35,886 nucleotides of DNA from a virus. The notes under the pieces are model-generated. The model was not told the origin of the DNA, did no database searches, and saw only the letters and a program-made list of their open reading frames with translations. The stretch covers positions 1-35,886 of the IMG/VR virus record IMGVR_UViG_3300031578_000172; one strand, given 5' to 3'. Numbering within the stretch: position 1 is the stretch's first letter; each line of letters starts with the position of its first letter. The translations under genes were made by a program, and so were the position numbers. Shown piece by piece: positions 3,068-32,240 of this stretch.

Positions 3068-3342
3068 GTCCGCAGTAACCCCAATGCCTCCAGTTCTGCC
3101 CTCAGTCGCTCGTCGGCCTTGCGTTCCTGCAACGTCGGCTTCCCATGATGCCGGCGCGGGTTGCCGCAGCACGGACCGGAACATGGGACCCGGCAATAGC
3201 GCATGCGGCGTTCAATGTCGCCGCCGGGTTCATACCATCGTTCCGAACGTACCCCGTCGCTGGCCTCCCGCCAGACGCGAAGCACGCGCCGGGCATGTTT
3301 CTTGGCTTGCCGCAACCTTTCGCCGCGCATCCTCTCACCCAC
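3064..3342 (-). CDS. Small zinc-finger-like phage protein (92 aa)
   Basis: The central segment YCRVPCSGPCCGNPRRH contains four cysteines and is followed by a basic/acidic helix (TLQERKADERLRAELEALG). I recall short phage proteins with a C-x-C-x2-CGNPR(R/K) core followed by an LQE helix, always unassigned; this recollection was not checked. The frame opens at GTG 3342, 8 bases inside the previous gene; ATG at 3330 is an alternative start. Its stop overlaps the -35 box of the promoter driving the virion genes. Metal binding is likely; function is unknown. Confidence 0.7.
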   Translation of the reverse strand: MGERMRGERLRQAKKHARRVLRVWREASDGVRSERWYEPGGDIERRMRYCRVPCSGPCCGNPRRHHGKPTLQERKADERLRAELEALGLLRT

Positions 3343-7684: not shown

Positions 7685-10648
7685 CTATTCCAGGATCCGA
7701 TCATACGTCTTCCCGCACTGCACGCAGCGCACCCAGTTCCCGTGCCCCTCGTAGAACTCGGCCGATGGTCCCCCGCAGAATGGGCACGTCCGGTCGATGA
7801 CCTGCGGCACGTGCGACTCATCCAGCTCGGTCGGGAACTCCTCGTCCTCGGGCGGCGAGGTCGTGTCCGGCTGCTCCAGGTCGTCCGGCTCCTCTTCCTT
7901 CTCCGCCCTGGCCAGCTTGAACGCCTCCGGGCTGATGATGTCCATCACCTCGTCCGCGCCGACCGCCTGCAGGACGGTCTGGAGCATGTGAATGTTGACG
8001 GCGTCCATGACCTCCTGCGGGATCTCGCCCATCGCGTTCATGTTCACCAGGAAGTCGCGGTAGAACGTGCCGATCGCGCCGCTCAGACTTTCCAGGTCGG
8101 CCTGCACCAGCTTGTCGGTGGACACCTGGCCGTTGTAGGTCTCGAACCGCATCTTGCCGAACTGCTCCGCGAACTTGAGGACGACCTTGAGCATGACGCG
8201 GAAGTGGCTGCTCCAGAACTTGCGGTAGCGGGAGAACTGGAACTCAAGGGGCCGCTCCATCGAAGTATTGCCAGCGATGAGCGGATAACCGTTGCGTCGC
8301 GTAATAAACATCGTGTTGGGCAAGGCTTCAAAGCACCATACTTTGCCAGAGTATTGCACTGCCTTAACGTTGTTTCGTCTGGCAAGGCTGAACTTCCATC
8401 GGTCGCTCCTGTGGAGGATCCAGCATGCCGCGCTCGTCTCGAAATCCGGATGCCCGTTCTCAGGTCGGTTGACGGCTATCGTACCCCATTCGCCCAAGTT
8501 CAGGAGAAGCGCCTGTAGCCCATCGATCAGCTCCTTGGATGTGGAAGTGAAGAAGCCTTTGTAGTGCTCATGTTCCTCCGAGTGGCCGTCGCCAGCCCAA
8601 AGTGCGTCAACAAGGATTCTGGTTTGCTCTCGATTCATGTCATAGGCAAACCCAGGCAGTCGTTTGCTCTTTGCACCCTTGCCACAGTTCTTTTCAAGCC
8701 AGTCATAAAGCGCCTTGTCATTCGTGCGCCACCGTATGGTCCGCCCTTCATCTTTGATGCCACGATTGAACTGGAAGGGAAGTCTGTCAAGCAAAGCCTC
8801 AATTCGCTCCACATCTGGACTGTCTACGTTTTGGCAGATGCCAACAACATGGTTATATCCGGTCCCATTCAGCCATCCTTCCGATAGCCACCAGCCAAGA
8901 AACTCCAGCCAGTCATCCATCGGAAAGGCGCGGGTCCCCAGTCTGCTCTTTTCCTGCCCTTGCCCGACAGATGGCAGAATGAAGGCCTCAATTACTGGAC
9001 GCGCTTCGCATAATGCCCTGGCCGGAAGAGCGAAACGGGAAGGAAGAGAATCCGCTTGGATCACCTCAAACGCCGTCTTGGCCCACTTCCTGCTCACGTT
9101 GTTCTCGTTCAGCGCCAGCATCCGATGGTTCGGCGTTACCAGGGCGTCGACGCTGCGTCCCTCAAACTGGATCATCGGCCCGTCATAGTCATACACATGC
9201 AGCTTCTGCGGCCACATGTACTCTATCTGCTGGAGGCCCTGGTTGTATGTTGCGATCATGTTGTGGCCCACGTCCCGCCAGCCTCGCCAACCCTTCTCGG
9301 TCAGCACTTCCGTGTCATCCGAGTAACACGCGGTTGCAAGCCGATAAGCGTCACCCTTGCCCGCGTAGTGGGGGAACAGCCCGTAGGCCAGAATCGGCAT
9401 CCAGGCGAACATCTCCTCGTCCGTCTTGGCGTCGTCCGCGCCGGTCCGCATGGGAAGATCCTCATAGTCAGTCGCCCTGTTGTGGAGGAACGTCGACCCG
9501 GCGGCCGCCGCCGGGTTGGTCTCCTGGTAGTTAGTTGCGGAGAGGTGAGAGGCGATCTGGTTGGCCACCGATTTGACGTTCCTCGACCCGCCGGCCATGC
9601 GCAGGCGCCGCACGTACATGGCCTTGGCCGCCGACACAGACAGCCGATTCTGCATGTACTGCTTGTGCGCCCGGTCCCACGCCGCGCCGGTAGTGCTCAG
9701 CGGCCACCCCCACAGGCTCGCCCGGTCCTTGGCGTTGTAGGCGATGTGCTGCGCGACGGCGACGGTCCCCGGCTGGCCCAGAAGCCCGTTGGCACGCATC
9801 TTGTCCGTGCGCTGGTCGTCCTTGACCCCGACGTACTCGGCCAGGGTCTTGCCGTCCTTGTACGTTTCGTCGAGCTTGCCCGAGAAGTACGCCTGCCAGT
9901 CGGGATAGTACCACGTCTGGGCCTTCGCGCCCAGGCTGAACTCGCGCTTGTAGAACAGCGGCTGCCACTTGTTTTCGGGGTGGGTGACAACGGACTTGAC
10001 CTCGTCCACGTCGAGCTCCGCGACCGTGGTCTCCCCGTCCGACGTGGACGCGTAATAGGCCAGGATCACGTTCCCGTCGCGCAGCACGTCCTCGGACAGG
10101 CAGTAGATGCTGGCCTCGCCCAGCAGGCGAGCGTTCCGGTCGGCGGACCAGAACTCCTGCCACACGCCGAGCTCCTTGACACGGTCCTGATACGTACGCT
10201 GCGCCTGCTCGCCCAAGCGTTCGCCGACTTCCTCCGGCGGCTGCGCCTTCTCGTCGTCCGGCACGATCTCCAGGCCCTCACCGAAGCCGTAGGACGTCCA
10301 CAGCGAAACGGCCCACTGGTAGAGGACGGAATACCGCCACAGGCGGCGGGACTCCTGGACCGCGAGCTGCCACTCCCGCCCGGCGTCGCCTTCCCGGTAA
10401 GACGTGAGGGATCCGATCTGCTCGTATTGCAGCTGGTTGACGAGGTCCCACAAGTAGGCGCTGTCGTACTCCCCGAGCTGGCGCAGCAGTTCATCCGGCT
10501 GGAGCTGGTAGGGACCGTCCAGGTAGGCGCCCCACATGTGTCGCACGCTGGCCGTGATTTCCTCGAGCTGGCGCCGCCGCCCTCCCCCGTCGATCAGGTC
10601 CGCGAACCGCTCGCGCAAGTTCGCCAGTACGCCATGTTGTTCGGTCAT
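7685..10648 (-). CDS. Portal protein interrupted by an in-frame intein
   Basis: 987 residues. Residues 1-440 and 795-987 are the portal exteins and 441-794 an intein; spliced length would be 633, large but plausible for a portal. Extein features include a long N-terminal region with QEFWSADRNARLLGEASIYC, then the conserved patch GDAYRLATA joined to TSMERPLEFQFSRYRKFW, where the intein sits. The C-terminus adds an acidic linker (residues 915-945) and a zinc ribbon, CPFC at 955 and CVQC at 975. The portal forms the dodecameric DNA channel at one capsid vertex and docks the terminase, encoded upstream in the same direction. The start overlaps the preceding stop (ATGA) and has an aaggga ribosome site. 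Confidence 0.88.
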   Translation of the reverse strand: MTEQHGVLANLRERFADLIDGGGRRRQLEEITASVRHMWGAYLDGPYQLQPDELLRQLGEYDSAYLWDLVNQLQYEQIGSLTSYREGDAGREWQLAVQESRRLWRYSVLYQWAVSLWTSYGFGEGLEIVPDDEKAQPPEEVGERLGEQAQRTYQDRVKELGVWQEFWSADRNARLLGEASIYCLSEDVLRDGNVILAYYASTSDGETTVAELDVDEVKSVVTHPENKWQPLFYKREFSLGAKAQTWYYPDWQAYFSGKLDETYKDGKTLAEYVGVKDDQRTDKMRANGLLGQPGTVAVAQHIAYNAKDRASLWGWPLSTTGAAWDRAHKQYMQNRLSVSAAKAMYVRRLRMAGGSRNVKSVANQIASHLSATNYQETNPAAAAGSTFLHNRATDYEDLPMRTGADDAKTDEEMFAWMPILAYGLFPHYAGKGDAYRLATACYSDDTEVLTEKGWRGWRDVGHNMIATYNQGLQQIEYMWPQKLHVYDYDGPMIQFEGRSVDALVTPNHRMLALNENNVSRKWAKTAFEVIQADSLPSRFALPARALCEARPVIEAFILPSVGQGQEKSRLGTRAFPMDDWLEFLGWWLSEGWLNGTGYNHVVGICQNVDSPDVERIEALLDRLPFQFNRGIKDEGRTIRWRTNDKALYDWLEKNCGKGAKSKRLPGFAYDMNREQTRILVDALWAGDGHSEEHEHYKGFFTSTSKELIDGLQALLLNLGEWGTIAVNRPENGHPDFETSAACWILHRSDRWKFSLARRNNVKAVQYSGKVWCFEALPNTMFITRRNGYPLIAGNTSMERPLEFQFSRYRKFWSSHFRVMLKVVLKFAEQFGKMRFETYNGQVSTDKLVQADLESLSGAIGTFYRDFLVNMNAMGEIPQEVMDAVNIHMLQTVLQAVGADEVMDIISPEAFKLARAEKEEEPDDLEQPDTTSPPEDEEFPTELDESHVPQVIDRTCPFCGGPSAEFYEGHGNWVRCVQCGKTYDRILE
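8267..9328 (-). mobile_element. Intein with LAGLIDADG-type homing endonuclease domain inside the portal gene
   Basis: 354 residues from Cys441 to Asn794 of the portal ORF. Block A is CYSDDTEVLTEKGW, block B contains VTPNHRM, endonuclease blocks C and E are EFLGWWLSEG and LVDALWAGDG, block F is GKVWCFEALPNTMF, and block G is YPLIAGN followed by extein Thr795. The residue before the terminal Asn is Gly instead of the usual His, which could slow or alter splicing. The DNA is visibly less GC-rich than both exteins, as expected for a mobile insertion. It interrupts the conserved ATA/TSMERP patch of the portal. Second acidic residues in both LAGLIDADG-like helices (E590, D687) are retained, so endonuclease activity is possible. 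Confidence 0.9.
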
Positions 10649-14277: not shown

Positions 14278-14295
14278 TGTTCAGGGAATTGGCCA

Positions 14296-14324
14296 TTGAC
14301 AAGTTTCCTGTTCTGTGATACAAT
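14296..14324 (+). promoter_or_regulatory. Rightward sigma70-type promoter P1
   Basis: TTGACA at 14296, a 17-base spacer and TACAAT at 14319-14324. It is preceded by ggaattggcca and followed by the box GAATGAATCTTC (14334-14345), both shared in near-identical form with the promoters at 17162 and 22459. The -10 region lies within GATACAATGTATC, a 6-1-6 palindrome that could be an operator. It drives the small genes from 14369. Confidence 0.85.
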
Positions 14325-14368
14325 GTATCTGTAGAATGAATCTTCACAGACCGACAGGAGGGACCGAA

Positions 14369-17118: not shown

Positions 17119-17147
17119 ATTGTACCACGAAAAGGGGCGCCCGTCAA
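17119..17147 (-). promoter_or_regulatory. Leftward sigma70-type promoter
   Basis: On the minus strand TTGACG (17147-17142), a 17-base spacer and TACAAT (17124-17119). It is back to back with the rightward promoter at 17162-17190; the two -35 boxes are only 14 bases apart, so polymerases would compete. It drives the ParB-like and methyltransferase genes with a 109-base leader. Confidence 0.78.
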
Positions 17148-17161
17148 GGGGAAACTGGCTA

Positions 17162-17190
17162 TTGACAAACTTCTGATTGTATGATACAAT
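17162..17190 (+). promoter_or_regulatory. Rightward sigma70-type promoter P2
   Basis: TTGACA at 17162-17167, a 17-base spacer and TACAAT at 17185-17190. It is followed by GTAATC and the box GAACGAACATTC (17200-17211), then a leader with the same gacaggaggcacg ribosome region as P3. It drives the genes from 17236 through the ArdC-like gene and probably further. Confidence 0.85.
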
Positions 17191-17235
17191 GTAATCATAG
17201 AACGAACATTCGGGACAGGCAAGACAGGAGGCACG

Positions 17236-19446: not shown

Positions 19447-19488
19447 GTCGGTACGAGCTGACGTGGGCGTGGAGCCCATGGCCGTAGA

Positions 19489-19507
19489 TTTTGTATGACA
19501 TACAAAA
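19489..19507. promoter_or_regulatory. Operator-like 19-bp perfect palindrome
   Basis: TTTTGTATGACATACAAAA: 9-base arms around one central base, perfectly complementary. It sits 15 bases before the TOPRIM gene start at 19522. Near-identical elements precede genes at 21054, 26130 and 29266. An ATG within the palindrome (19495) is in frame with the gene and would add nine residues. Probable binding site of a dimeric regulator, or a hairpin over the translation start. Confidence 0.75.
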
Positions 19508-19521
19508 GAAGGGAGCATCCG

Positions 19522-21015: not shown

Positions 21016-21021
21016 AATAGG

Positions 21022-21040
21022 TTTTGTATGGTATACAAAA
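21022..21040. promoter_or_regulatory. Operator-like 19-bp palindrome (one mismatch)
   Basis: TTTTGTATGGTATACAAAA, with one mismatched arm position, 14 bases before the gene at 21054. The internal ATG (21028) opens a nine-codon leader frame (MVYKKEQAQ) whose stop overlaps the ATG of the gene, so it could couple translation. Confidence 0.72.
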
Positions 21041-21053
21041 AGGAACAGGCACA

Positions 21054-21671: not shown

Positions 21672-22078
21672 GCAAGAGACGATGTCACGACTGCGGCGTA
21701 TGCGAGGGAGAGATCCACAACTTGGGCTGCGACATGGAAGAATGCCCGTTCTGCGGCGGACAGCTCATCTCCTGCGGATGCGTCTACAGCATACTGATGA
21801 TAGATGTGACTCCTGGAACCTGGACATATTCTCACGGACTTACTGACGAACAGGAATTAGACTGGCTGGAACAGCTTGATGATGTAGGACGCATCCCCTA
21901 CATCGTATACCCGAACCTGTGCGCCAGATGTGGAGCATTGTGGCCCGAACTATTCTCTGTCCCCAATATGCAATGGCAGCGCTACGTACCCAAAAGCCAA
22001 CGGCACAAGATCCTCTGCTGGGACTGCTACTGTGAGATCAAGACACTAATTGATGCAGCGAAGAGAAGGCGAACGTGA
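21668..22078 (+). CDS. Zinc-ribbon protein with [13 protein letters not shown] motif (136 aa)
   Basis: N-terminal [20 protein letters not shown] and [13 protein letters not shown] hold at least eight cysteines and a His, enough for two zinc sites. A second set ([10 protein letters not shown] and CWDCYCEIK) lies near the C-terminus, where a ribosomal or HNH-like knuckle is imaginable. The first block is closely similar to the gene at 31213-31473, so they are paralogues. I recall the GCD.E.CP.CGGQL.SC.C pattern from phage genomes without known function. Starts inside the previous stop (ATGA). GC content drops in its second half. Confidence 0.72.
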
Positions 22079-22281: not shown

Positions 22282-22462
22282 CGAGGCGACGGCGGCGGCG
22301 AGGGAAGGCGCCGCCGCGTGGTTCGCGTACCGCGACCCCGAGCTGGGCGGCTGGGGATGGTACCCGAACTCCGAGCGCCTGGGCACGGGCCGGTGGGTCA
22401 AGGAGCAGTGGATCGAGGAGACGGACGCGGGCCCGGTCGAAGTCGTGGAAACTGGCTATTGA
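22253..22462 (+). CDS. Small hypothetical protein (69 aa)
   Basis: [20 protein letters not shown] followed by FAYRDPELGGWGWYPNSERL and an acidic end (EQWIEETDAGPVEVVETGY). ATG 22253 is chosen because upstream of it the frame is Arg/Gly/Pro shadow sequence of the neighbour. The stop overlaps the -35 box of promoter P3. Function unknown. Confidence 0.62.
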   Translation: MRQHAYPSLDEATAAAREGAAAWFAYRDPELGGWGWYPNSERLGTGRWVKEQWIEETDAGPVEVVETGY

Positions 22463-22487
22463 CAATCCCCCCGTTTCGTGATACAAT
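22459..22487 (+). promoter_or_regulatory. Rightward sigma70-type promoter P3
   Basis: TTGACA at 22459-22464, a 17-base spacer and TACAAT at 22482-22487. The upstream 12 bases (ggaaactggcta) are identical to those of P2. Downstream GTAATC and the perfect 5-2-5 palindrome GAATGAACATTC (22497-22508) match P2, as does the leader up to gacaggaggcacgATG. Confidence 0.87.
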
Positions 22488-22530
22488 GTAATCGTAGAAT
22501 GAACATTCGCAGGCACGGACAGGAGGCACG

Positions 22531-26066: not shown

Positions 26067-26097
26067 GCGCCATCGGCATGGAATCCACGGTTATAGA

Positions 26098-26116
26098 CTT
26101 TGTATGCCATACAAAA
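26098..26116. promoter_or_regulatory. Operator-like 19-bp palindrome
   Basis: CTTTGTATGCCATACAAAA, one end base off the perfect palindrome, 13 bases before the gene at 26130. The 30 bases upstream resemble those upstream of the 19489 copy, so a larger segment was duplicated. A 21-codon frame starting at ATG 26063 (overlapping the previous stop) reads through it, and another starting at the internal ATG 26104 encodes only MPYKKE. Confidence 0.72.
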
Positions 26117-26129
26117 AGGAATAAATGAG

Positions 26130-29225: not shown

Positions 29226-29259
29226 AACGACGACGACATGGACGAGTGCTGAAGGGAGA

Positions 29260-29278
29260 TTTTGTATGTCATACAAAA
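29260..29278. promoter_or_regulatory. Operator-like 19-bp perfect palindrome over a start codon
   Basis: TTTTGTATGTCATACAAAA; its internal ATG (29266) is the start codon of the ASCH-like gene, whose first residues MSYK are encoded by the palindrome. An aaggga site precedes it. Binding here, or folding of the RNA, would directly block translation or transcription of the gene. Confidence 0.75.
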
Positions 29279-30081
29279 TATATCCGGTCTTGTTCAACGG
29301 CGAGATGGTGCGGGCCGTACTGGCGGGACAGAAAACGCAAACGCGGAGGCCCATCAAGCCGCAGCCGTCGGATAAAATCATCCGATATGCTAGGACGCGC
29401 GATTTAATGGCTGATGTGTGGAATCGTTACTATGAGGAAGGCTATCGCGAATGGATGGGTGTATTGCCCGATGGGGCCATGACATGCCATCGCGATTGTC
29501 CCTACGGGTTGATTGGCGATCATCTATGGGTCCGCGAGACATTCGTTCTCGAGGACACAGACGAGGTGCCCACGGACGGGCGCCCCTACCGCGAGATGGA
29601 GGAGCCTGGCGAGTTTGGGCAACTGCTTGTGCCGCATTATCGGGCCACTGAGCCCGAGCCGCATATCGTTCCTCTGGACCTGTCGGATAGCTACGATGAC
29701 CGCACCCGCTGGCATCCTTCCATCTTCATGCCGCACTGGGCGTCGCGCATCACGCTGGAGGTCACGAACGTGCGGGTGGAGCGGGTGCAGGACATCACGG
29801 ATGACGACGCCTGGGAGGAAGGCGCGTGGTGGTGGAGGCACGATGATGCAGCCGGTCCGCCCTTCTATGTGCGCAAGGGCTACAATGTCGAGTGTTTCTC
29901 GGAACTGTGGGACTCTATCTATGCCAAACCCAAGCCCGTCTACAGGGACAAGCAGATCGTGCACTATATCAGTTACCCGTGGGAGGCAGACACGGAGACG
30001 CGGGAGCATCGTGGGTTGCCCTGGTTCGTGTACGGCAATCCATGGACATGGGCGGTATCGTTCAAGAAGCTGGAGGGCTGA
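29266..30081 (+). CDS. ASCH-like domain phage protein (271 aa)
   Basis: KIYPVLFNGEMVRAVLAGQK then TQTRRPIKPQ, CPYGLIGDHLWVRETF, FMPHWASRITLEVTNVRVER, VQDITDDDAWEEGA and NPWTWAVSFKKLE. I know this order from a common phage family with an ASCH/PUA-like fold (f....a.lAG.KTqTRR, PG..LWVRE, ..r.I..v...R...It..da). Such domains bind RNA or modified nucleobases; the phage members are often labelled morphogenetic without proof. The start codon lies in the operator-like palindrome, indicating tight control. Confidence 0.72.
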   Translation: MSYKIYPVLFNGEMVRAVLAGQKTQTRRPIKPQPSDKIIRYARTRDLMADVWNRYYEEGYREWMGVLPDGAMTCHRDCPYGLIGDHLWVRETFVLEDTDEVPTDGRPYREMEEPGEFGQLLVPHYRATEPEPHIVPLDLSDSYDDRTRWHPSIFMPHWASRITLEVTNVRVERVQDITDDDAWEEGAWWWRHDDAAGPPFYVRKGYNVECFSELWDSIYAKPKPVYRDKQIVHYISYPWEADTETREHRGLPWFVYGNPWTWAVSFKKLEG

Positions 30082-30801: not shown

Positions 30802-30993
30802 ATGCATACCAGCGACAAGGTTCTTAGGGCCCTCAGCCTGTACGTGAAGGGCGGGGGGACATTCGGGACCCGGAAGTACCTCGCACTGCACGACCAGCTG
30901 GTGGGGATCTACCGGGATGTGAAGGTGCTGGAGCAGCGTCCGGAGCCGCCGCTGGAGATGCTGGAGCGGTGGGCCAGGGAGAACGAGCCCTAG
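30802..30993 (+). CDS. Small helical protein (63 aa)
   Basis: MHTSDKVLRALSLYVKGGGT, RKYLALHDQLVGIYRDVKVL and LEMLERWARENEP: helical and charged, no membrane segment. aggaggg site 10 bases upstream. Its stop is 10 bases before the -35 box of the next promoter. Function unknown. Confidence 0.6.
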   Translation: MHTSDKVLRALSLYVKGGGTFGTRKYLALHDQLVGIYRDVKVLEQRPEPPLEMLERWARENEP

Positions 30994-31003
30994 GAACCGG
31001 GTA

Positions 31004-31032
31004 TTGACAATCTGCCCGGTTCGTGATACAAT
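31004..31032 (+). promoter_or_regulatory. Rightward sigma70-type promoter P4
   Basis: TTGACA at 31004-31009, a 17-base spacer and TACAAT at 31027-31032, preceded by ggaaccgggta, similar to P1-P3. It lacks the GAAYGAACATTC box of the other three rightward promoters and instead leads into a long structured leader. Confidence 0.83.
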
Positions 31033-31038
31033 GAAAGC

Positions 31039-31212
31039 GGAGTGGGATGGCGACCCACACCGACAACCAGTAGCACGCGGACCCGAAACCCTTGTGGTTT
31101 CTCACCGGGCGGTATAGGAACAGTCCCCAGCCAGGGCTTCTTCTATATCGCGTGCTACGGCCTATACCGTCCGCTGAGAGATCGCGAGGGTTTTGTTTGT
31201 CAGGAGGACACG
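31039..31212 (+). ncRNA. Structured leader RNA with two interlocking helices
   Basis: From the predicted start to the next ATG there are about 174 bases without a gene. Arm A gtagcacgcg (31070-31079) is perfectly complementary to 31149-31158, ten pairs. Arm B cgggcggtatagg (31106-31118) pairs with 31161-31173, thirteen pairs including one G-U. The order A-B-A'-B' means the helices form a pseudoknot or are mutually exclusive. Smaller hairpins lie at 31042-31058 (gtggg/cccac) and 31085-31101 (gaaacc/ggtttc). A T-rich stretch (ttttgtttgt) and an aggagga ribosome site follow. It could be a riboswitch, a trans-acting RNA or a translational control element; it matches no class I recognise. Confidence 0.6.
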
Positions 31213-31473
31213 ATGGCTGTATGCGACTACTGCGGGCAGGAAATGACCGATCCCGCAACGAAGAGCTGTAGGTCGGACTCCATCATATTCCCAGACGGCG
31301 AGTGCTTGCGTCCCATCCCGTACGCGCCAGAGTATGGCGGCCCAGACCGGCGGTGCCATGACTGCAATGTCACACGGGGCGGGTTCCACCATGCTAGGTG
31401 CGACATGGAACGGTGCCCCCGGTGCGGGGGTCAGCTCATCAGCTGCGGGTGCCTGTCAGTAGAGGTGGAATGA
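31213..31473 (+). CDS. Zinc-ribbon protein behind the structured leader (86 aa)
   Basis: CDYCGQEM at the start and RCHDCNVTRGGFHHARCDME, then [13 protein letters not shown] at the end. The second block is closely similar to the first half of the 136-residue protein at 21668-22078, so they are paralogues; this one has an extra N-terminal CxxC pair. Several zinc sites are likely. ATG 31213 follows caggaggacacg. Its expression is presumably controlled by promoter P4 and the structured leader. Function unknown. Confidence 0.7.
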   Translation: MAVCDYCGQEMTDPATKSCRSDSIIFPDGECLRPIPYAPEYGGPDRRCHDCNVTRGGFHHARCDMERCPRCGGQLISCGCLSVEVE

Positions 31474-31745
31474 CAAACGAAACCGTGATTCTGAGGGGGA
31501 GGGATGCGGTAGAGAACGCCGCGTCTAGGGGCCGAGGGTACCGCTGGTGACAGCAGCGTAGAGTAGGCATCGAGAGGCCTTGTCAGCCGATAGAGGGTGG
31601 AATTCCCTCCCTCCCCAGTTCCTTTAACAAGGTAATATGTCGCGGACCCGTGGCAGCGGGCAGTGGTGTGAGCATCTGTGGTCGGCGGTCCTACCAAGAC
31701 GCGGAATCTGTCAATCAGACTATGTAACGAAAGGGAGTGAATGCC
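31474..31745 (+). other. 272-base noncoding stretch, possibly structured RNA
   Basis: No frame of coding quality on either strand. A G-rich run near 31491-31503 can pair with the C-rich 31605-31618 and would enclose about 100 bases. Inside is gctg-GTGA-cagc (31543-31554), a stem with a GNRA tetraloop, and AGGC/GCCT around atcgagag (31565-31580). A second possible hairpin, cccg/cggg, is at 31647-31660. No promoter was found inside, so it would be transcribed with the preceding gene. The final aaaggga is the ribosome site of the next gene. Structure is suggested, not demonstrated. Confidence 0.42.
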
Positions 31746-32240
31746 ATGAAACGTAAACTGTTCTGGTGGGTCTTAGCAATTGGGTTGCTGGTTCTGACTA
31801 TGCTCGCGCTTGCGATAGTTGAGAGTCGGGGACAGGATCTGGTGCCGAGGGCATACTTACCGCTTGTACTGAAAGCAGAGGCTGCGCCGACCTCAATACA
31901 GCCCACGCCGACCCCAATACCTACTCCTACACCTACTCCTACGCCGTCTCAATGTGTGTTGTATATGGAAACCAAGGTGGGCAGTTTGACGTATGGGGTC
32001 TTTCGCTCGGGCTTCGGCTCGAAGTACGTAGATGATTGGGGTGCCCGTCTTTATGGCAGTTTTCCTGCGGGTACATACAGTTGGCAAGCGGATGCTCGGT
32101 GCTATGGTGGTCGTGTTAGTGCTTGGGGTACTGATTACTTTGGGGTTGGTGATTGGGAGCATGTCTTCAGGTGCGATTGGGCAACATATCCATTTGAGCC
32201 GCCCAGACTTATCCTTTGTGATCGTTTGAGGGGGAGGTAG
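31746..32240 (+). CDS. Secreted/anchored protein with YLPLVLK and PT-rich linker (164 aa)
   Basis: MKRKLFWWVLAIGLLVLTML is a signal anchor. It is followed by RAYLPLVLKAEAAPTSIQ and a PTPTPIPTPTPTPTP linker (about residues 55-67), and then a beta-rich domain (VGSLTYGVFRSGFGSKYVDD, GTYSWQADARCYGG). The YLPLVL-plus-PT-linker combination is what I associate with secreted proteins of Chloroflexota, making this the best host clue here. The exported domain is small and unassigned; a moron altering the host surface is plausible. ATG 31746 is preferred over GTG 31737, which overlaps the ribosome site. Confidence 0.66.
   Translation: MKRKLFWWVLAIGLLVLTMLALAIVESRGQDLVPRAYLPLVLKAEAAPTSIQPTPTPIPTPTPTPTPSQCVLYMETKVGSLTYGVFRSGFGSKYVDDWGARLYGSFPAGTYSWQADARCYGGRVSAWGTDYFGVGDWEHVFRCDWATYPFEPPRLILCDRLRGR

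Follow-up and report, generated by a model that had tools for sequence, protein, structure and literature searches.

In a phage genome record of 35,886 nt from IMG/VR (IMGVR_UViG_3300031578_000172, the whole of which is hereafter called the window), the leader RNA at 31039-31212, situated downstream of a strong promoter and upstream of a small zinc-ribbon gene, contains two long interlocking helices which are real and far above chance. Modelled folding suggests that positions 31039-31198 are probably a conditional intrinsic terminator in the leader of the zinc-ribbon mRNA, that is, a bistable transcription attenuator. The layout, which is found again in related phages, looks like a recurrent phage transcription on/off switch.

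Genomic context of the leader

The sigma-70-type promoter (TTGACA-17-TACAAT, 31004-31032, + strand) matches the consensus at 11 of 12 positions, and transcription is expected to start near 31039. On the same strand, the Shine-Dalgarno (SD) sequence AGGAGG (31202-31207) precedes the ATG at 31213, the start of the ORF encoding the zinc-ribbon protein of 86 aa (31213-31473). The initial annotation, made without database searches, had described an element running from a strong promoter to a ribosome site, and both boundaries are in place. Including this promoter, the window has four similar copies, and the 5' leaders of the other three are about 40 nt long, without the interlocking element. The repeat to which the copies belong (ATTGACAA...TGATACAATG) is located at 14278-14334, 17144-17200, 22441-22497 and 30986-31042, with short 5' UTRs and genes behind three of the four, and its class occurs at least seven times in the kin phage G422.

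Relatives of the zinc-ribbon gene were found at 17 IMG/VR loci and 33 genome loci, and its product matched no Pfam or PHROG family. A second gene segment of the window carries the same zinc-ribbon motif (21706-21781 versus 31377-31452, DNA identity 71%). The 272 nt located 3' of the gene (31474-31745) are devoid of a convincing gene and contain a tRNA-like T arm (GAGGG UGGAAUU CCCUC) and CCUCCCC; this stretch folds no better than its shuffles, and ARAGORN predicted no tRNA in it. The hosts are probably Chloroflexota bacteria, because the protein at 31746-32240 contains 'YLPLVLK...TPTPTPTP', a protein type which we take to be common in Chloroflexota, and because the zinc-ribbon stretch is 79% identical in an Anaerolineae metagenome-assembled genome.

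Interlocking helices and competing folds

The A and B pairings which had first drawn attention to the leader are present in the order A-B-A'-B', all on the + strand. Arm A (31070-31080) pairs with A' (31148-31158) over 11 bp with one G-U, this being a perfect 10-bp core (31070-31079 with 31149-31158) extended by the G-U, and arm B (31106-31118) pairs with B' (31161-31173) over 13 bp with one G-U. The expectation that two such pairings would rarely arise by chance was borne out, as the interlock score of 26 was reached by 0 of 2000 dinucleotide shuffles (highest 21) and by no other 174-nt segment of the contig (next 20). The z-score of the minimum free energy (MFE) was -3.8 for 31039-31212 and -4.7 for 31039-31202.

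Three further parts of the leader had been missed by the earlier reader, namely a helix E extending B, a helix C competing for B, and a U-tract. Arm E (31084-31104), the lower 5' arm of the putative terminator hairpin, pairs with E' (31175-31195), its 3' foot, over 21 bp including 5 G-U; B, the upper 5' arm, extends past one mismatch into E to give a single hairpin of about 34 bp, the 42-nt loop of which contains A'. The foot of this E/B hairpin adjoins the U-tract UUUUGUUU (31191-31198), a tract which includes a G, ends 3 nt 5' of AGGAGG and has the same motif in the kin leaders and in host attenuators. A stable hairpin is thus directly followed by a U-rich tract, and with the SD sequence, which is outside the hairpin, the order of parts is in sequence terms the one expected of an intrinsic terminator located ahead of a start codon and behind its promoter. 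The 3' end of the terminated RNA is expected in the U-tract.

Arm C (31109-31119) overlaps arm B and pairs with C' (31141-31151) over 11 bp with 2 G-U; C' competes with B' for the shared arm, the B (13 bp) and C (11 bp) helices being mutually exclusive, and a shortened helix C fits inside A:A'. A local hairpin D of 6 bp (31085-31101) competes for arm E. At the 5' end, the hairpin GGAGUGGG...CCCACACC (31039-31061, +) is present in the MFE structure and in the fold of every 5' prefix. A possible leader ORF of eight codons (MATHTDNQ, 31047-31073, +), the stop codon of which overlaps arm A, is probably due to chance.

Two complete folds are accordingly open to the leader: one is a three-way A/C/D shape, the other a giant hairpin resembling a terminator. 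Folds of growing 5' prefixes, in a model which ignores polymerase and kinetics, take the A/C/D shape when they end at 31158-31174 and that of the terminator from 31182 onwards, and by computation the A/C/D shape excludes the terminator in both prefix and constrained folds. Only 3 nt separate the end of arm A from the foot of E/B, and only 2 nt lie between the end of A' and the top of that hairpin; judging from helix lengths, the 11-bp A and the full 34-bp E/B would therefore not coexist. Since A forms first in the prefix folds and is too near the terminator foot to coexist with it, the leader is better described as a bistable attenuator than as a static pseudoknot; among the two options initially put forward, the two-state switch is thus favoured by the competing folds, while a stable pseudoknot is not supported. 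Computed direct-path barriers between the two shapes are 23-38 kcal/mol across the four leaders described below and 23-29 kcal/mol in the window, because of which the first-formed shape could outlast the passage of the polymerase. When A is enforced, part of the SD sequence pairs with 31169-31177; the A shape may thus leave the B'/E' strand paired to the SD region, and translational control may also contribute.

Leaders with the same layout in kin phages

A promoter-pattern scan combined with protein searches identified the kin phages G422, G421, G420 and G018, in which three more leaders were recognised by their layout, two in G422 and one in G421. Promoter, A-B-A'-B', UUU(U)GUUUU and SD sequence are common to all four leaders. 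Both strands of the window, G422, G421, G420, G018 and G001 were scanned without bias for interlocking arms (8,014 scan windows), and the leader studied here and a G422 leader (L092, 8682-8811) ranked first and second; when a simple repeat and helix variants of these two are set aside, the G421 leader (L096, 15234-15323) is one of the next highest, at the same score as two other places. As the element was already known when the scans were selected, the rank of the window leader is a description, and only those of the G422 and G421 leaders carry information. All three are positioned between a promoter and a U-tract/SD junction. The fourth leader (G422 L092, 10683-10838) shares this layout, its A stem being interrupted and not significant by itself, and in the other G422 leader the A shape is more stable than the terminator.

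The interlock scores of the four leaders range from 22 to 26, and each leader exceeded all of its 1000 shuffles, with an MFE z-score of about -4.5. With the terminator held fixed, A:A' was reached by 3, 28, 59 and 309 of 3000 shuffles, making it unusual in three of the four leaders; these values refer to one sequence per leader and to folding by an energy model. Across 0.9 Mb, a search for a strong hairpin followed by U-tract, SD sequence and start codon matched only the kin phages and one Nitrospirae site. There is no detectable sequence similarity among the window, G422 and G421 leaders, and the common layout, a matter of sequence arrangement, is not taken to imply homology in the strict sense or common descent. 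The motif CUUGUG, common to three leaders, is too short to count as significant, with 6 letters in about 150 nt.

The genes behind the kin leaders are unrelated, encoding an unknown 184-aa protein, an unknown 103-aa protein and an SNF2-helicase/methyltransferase protein, and for this reason the zinc-ribbon gene does not define the element. Relatives of the zinc-ribbon gene elsewhere have unrelated upstream regions, in which no such leader was detected by sequence or covariance-model search. The suggestion in the initial annotation that the RNA controls the zinc-ribbon protein therefore finds no support in the sense of a control specific to that protein, and nothing points to zinc as the ligand. 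It is conceivable, albeit doubtful, that these leaders constitute a new class of riboswitch-like attenuators of Chloroflexota phages, conserved in topology (A-B-A'-B', terminator, SD) and not in sequence, which would place several unrelated genes under one infection-state signal.

Promoter-hairpin arrangements of simpler form were also observed. At 3068 (-) of the window and in G018 (L066, 9204-9320), a late-gene promoter is followed by a short leader, a strong hairpin, an SD sequence and a related gene, the hairpin preceding UUUUGUU in G018 and not in the window. On the (-) strand of G018 (L067, 15261-15494), three promoters stand in a row, two of them with terminator-like hairpins and without a gene; these promoter-hairpin units are possible small RNA genes.

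Searches for known families and homologues

The window has no Rfam match at the gathering score, and a relaxed limit returned three weak matches only, none of them at the leader; no family was found at the leaders when the kin leaders and candidate loci were searched. The covariance-model search thus agrees with the first impression that the RNA belongs to no recognised riboswitch or ribozyme class. Homology searches, proposed at the same time, recovered no relative of the leader: BLAST against phages, zinc-ribbon records and the Anaerolineae genome gave short chance matches only, and no exact 20-mer of it was present in IMG/VR. Two covariance models, R1 and R2, were built on the window sequence alone and searched in the kin records, and R2 additionally in 400 Chloroflexota genomes. 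The best match (L072, 35 bits) was rejected, being antisense in gyrB, and the remaining ones, at 18-23 bits, were taken as chance. The stretches read around terminase relatives in Chloroflexota genomes contained no such element.

The T-box motif GGGTGGNACC is absent from 31039-31212 by reading, and Rfam reported no T-box there. A leader peptide is not common to the family, an ATG ORF with an SD-like motif being present in the window leader only and in 0 of the 3 others; a ribosome-mediated (leader-peptide) attenuator is not supported, since no leader peptide with an SD sequence is shared.

Proposed mechanism and alternative explanations

In the model that we propose, A and A' would pair in the nascent RNA around the local hairpins D and C, which would sequester the 5' arm of the terminator. 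If this A:A' shape were kept until the polymerase cleared the U-tract, the zinc-ribbon gene would be transcribed; if A:A' were absent or opened, E/B would pair with B'/E', the resulting hairpin of about 34 bp would stand on UUUUGUUU, and the polymerase would stop just before the SD sequence, leaving an RNA of about 160 nt. Candidate triggers are a ligand, a phage protein, an antisense RNA or a modification of the polymerase. Termination, the antiterminator role of A:A' and read-through as the default are all three steps which we infer from the modelled folds.

Such an RNA of about 160 nt might instead be the product of a small RNA gene with its own promoter and terminator, acting in trans, while leaky read-through or upstream promoters account for expression of the gene behind. 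A compact, structured RNA does lie between the promoter and the terminator, the genes behind the leaders are unrelated, and the G018 units (L067, 15494 and 15372) have no SD sequence behind them; a precedent is given by Gifsy-1 IsrK, reported as a prophage RNA that is both a terminated sRNA and the leader of a read-through mRNA (PMC4825925). This explanation is nevertheless unlikely, given that the SD sequence is at most about 15 nt from the U-tract in all four interlocking leaders, that a plain terminated RNA does not need a competing A fold, and that a shared trans target would favour sequence conservation, of which there is none between the leaders. Somewhat less probable still is a promoter-proximal terminator at which a phage protein or RNA would bring about processive antitermination, comparable to lambda pR'-tR' with Q or HK022 put, in which the complex fold would be a recognition or delay element. 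It would accommodate the G018 late-gene promoter with its leader, strong hairpin, U-tract and SD sequence, the promoter, leader, hairpin and SD sequence at the related gene of the window, and the fact that promoters of a single class occur several times in G422 and the window, with such a leader in some cases and without one in others; however, no antiterminator gene was identified, and the simple late-gene terminators lack A:A', so the interlocking design requires another reason.

The strong structure at the 5' end, and the pairing of part of the SD sequence in the A-enforced fold, would also suit a folded 5' UTR whose role is protection of the mRNA against 5' exonuclease or the control of translation alone, with an incidental U-tract. 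The recurrence of a U-tract straight after the stem, at six kin sites and in host attenuators, and the location of the SD sequence outside the E/B hairpin make this very unlikely. Least credible is a function of the inverted repeats as DNA, be it a recombination site, the end of a mobile element or a replication origin: although the element looks like an insertion between promoter and SD sequence, which are about 40 nt apart at the other promoter copies, most differences between arms in the four leaders read as G-U on the transcribed strand (20 G-U versus 2 A-C, a count partly biased by helix-finding), the transcribed strand is the better folder in three of the four, and the window holds no other copy of the leader. 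The bistable attenuator is therefore the reading that we retain.

Comparison with known regulatory systems

Host sequences served as calibration. In the 400 Chloroflexota genomes, the pattern TTTTGTTT-N1-8-AGGAGG-N4-9-ATG occurred at 42 sites, against 4 for the reversed pattern, a control which does not preserve the natural SD-ATG link. The T-box antiterminator motif was found in 9 of the 30 host loci read, and the Rfam matches among host loci were TPP, glycine, an L10 leader and one T-box. The U-tract/SD junction in Chloroflexota is thus often the expression platform of known attenuators, which supports the attenuator reading of the phage leader. Mutually exclusive folds, a strong terminator hairpin, TTTTGTTT, an SD sequence within a few bases and a gene are shared by the phage leader and the T-box, TPP and glycine attenuators of Chloroflexota; the phage leader differs in the lack of a T-box motif or Rfam aptamer, in its interlock score (26, and 22-26 in the four phage leaders, versus 0-17 in the host loci) and in its giant terminator with the 42-nt loop containing A'.

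To our knowledge, few phage-encoded transcription-attenuating leader switches have been described. In lambda pR'-tR' (6S RNA) with Q, and in the P4 CI RNA and P1 c4 immunity leaders, a phage promoter is followed by a leader with a terminator and then by genes, the P4 and c4 leaders contain complementary segments, and Q or a trans-acting RNA is required. The window leader resembles these systems in the order of its parts and, for P4 and c4, in its complementary segments. It differs from them in that no Q or trans-acting RNA was identified for it, in the absence of an Rfam match, and in the presence of several such leaders in one phage group with unrelated genes behind them.

Among open-access papers, none was found on phage attenuator leaders of this kind or on leader switches of Chloroflexota phages. 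The nearest phage case that we found described is Gifsy-1 IsrK, in which alternative structures are associated with a short terminated RNA and a read-through mRNA from a prophage promoter, and the RNA acts in trans on its own read-through mRNA (PMC4825925). The likeness consists of one promoter common to a terminated RNA and a read-through mRNA, for the phage leader as predicted from its letters and folding, and no sequence relation is claimed. If the proposed mechanism is true, single genes behind strong promoters are gated in these phages by an RNA architecture which they have in common and which diverges fast. This suggests interlocking arms beside a U-tract and SD sequence as a scan criterion for switches missed by sequence-based searches, and terminated leaders may additionally be small RNAs.

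Additional observations

A second intergenic repeat of the window, the palindrome TTTTGTATGNCATACAAAA or a near-match to it, is found upstream of genes at 19484-19512, 21017-21045, 26093-26121 and 29255-29283 and is operator-like. The long portal-like ORF at 7685-10648 (-) seems, by eye, to contain an intein, with CYSDDTEVLTEKGW ... at its start. In the kin phage G421, a DUF3800-VIII RNA (RF03075) scored above the gathering score (L096, 13893-13964).
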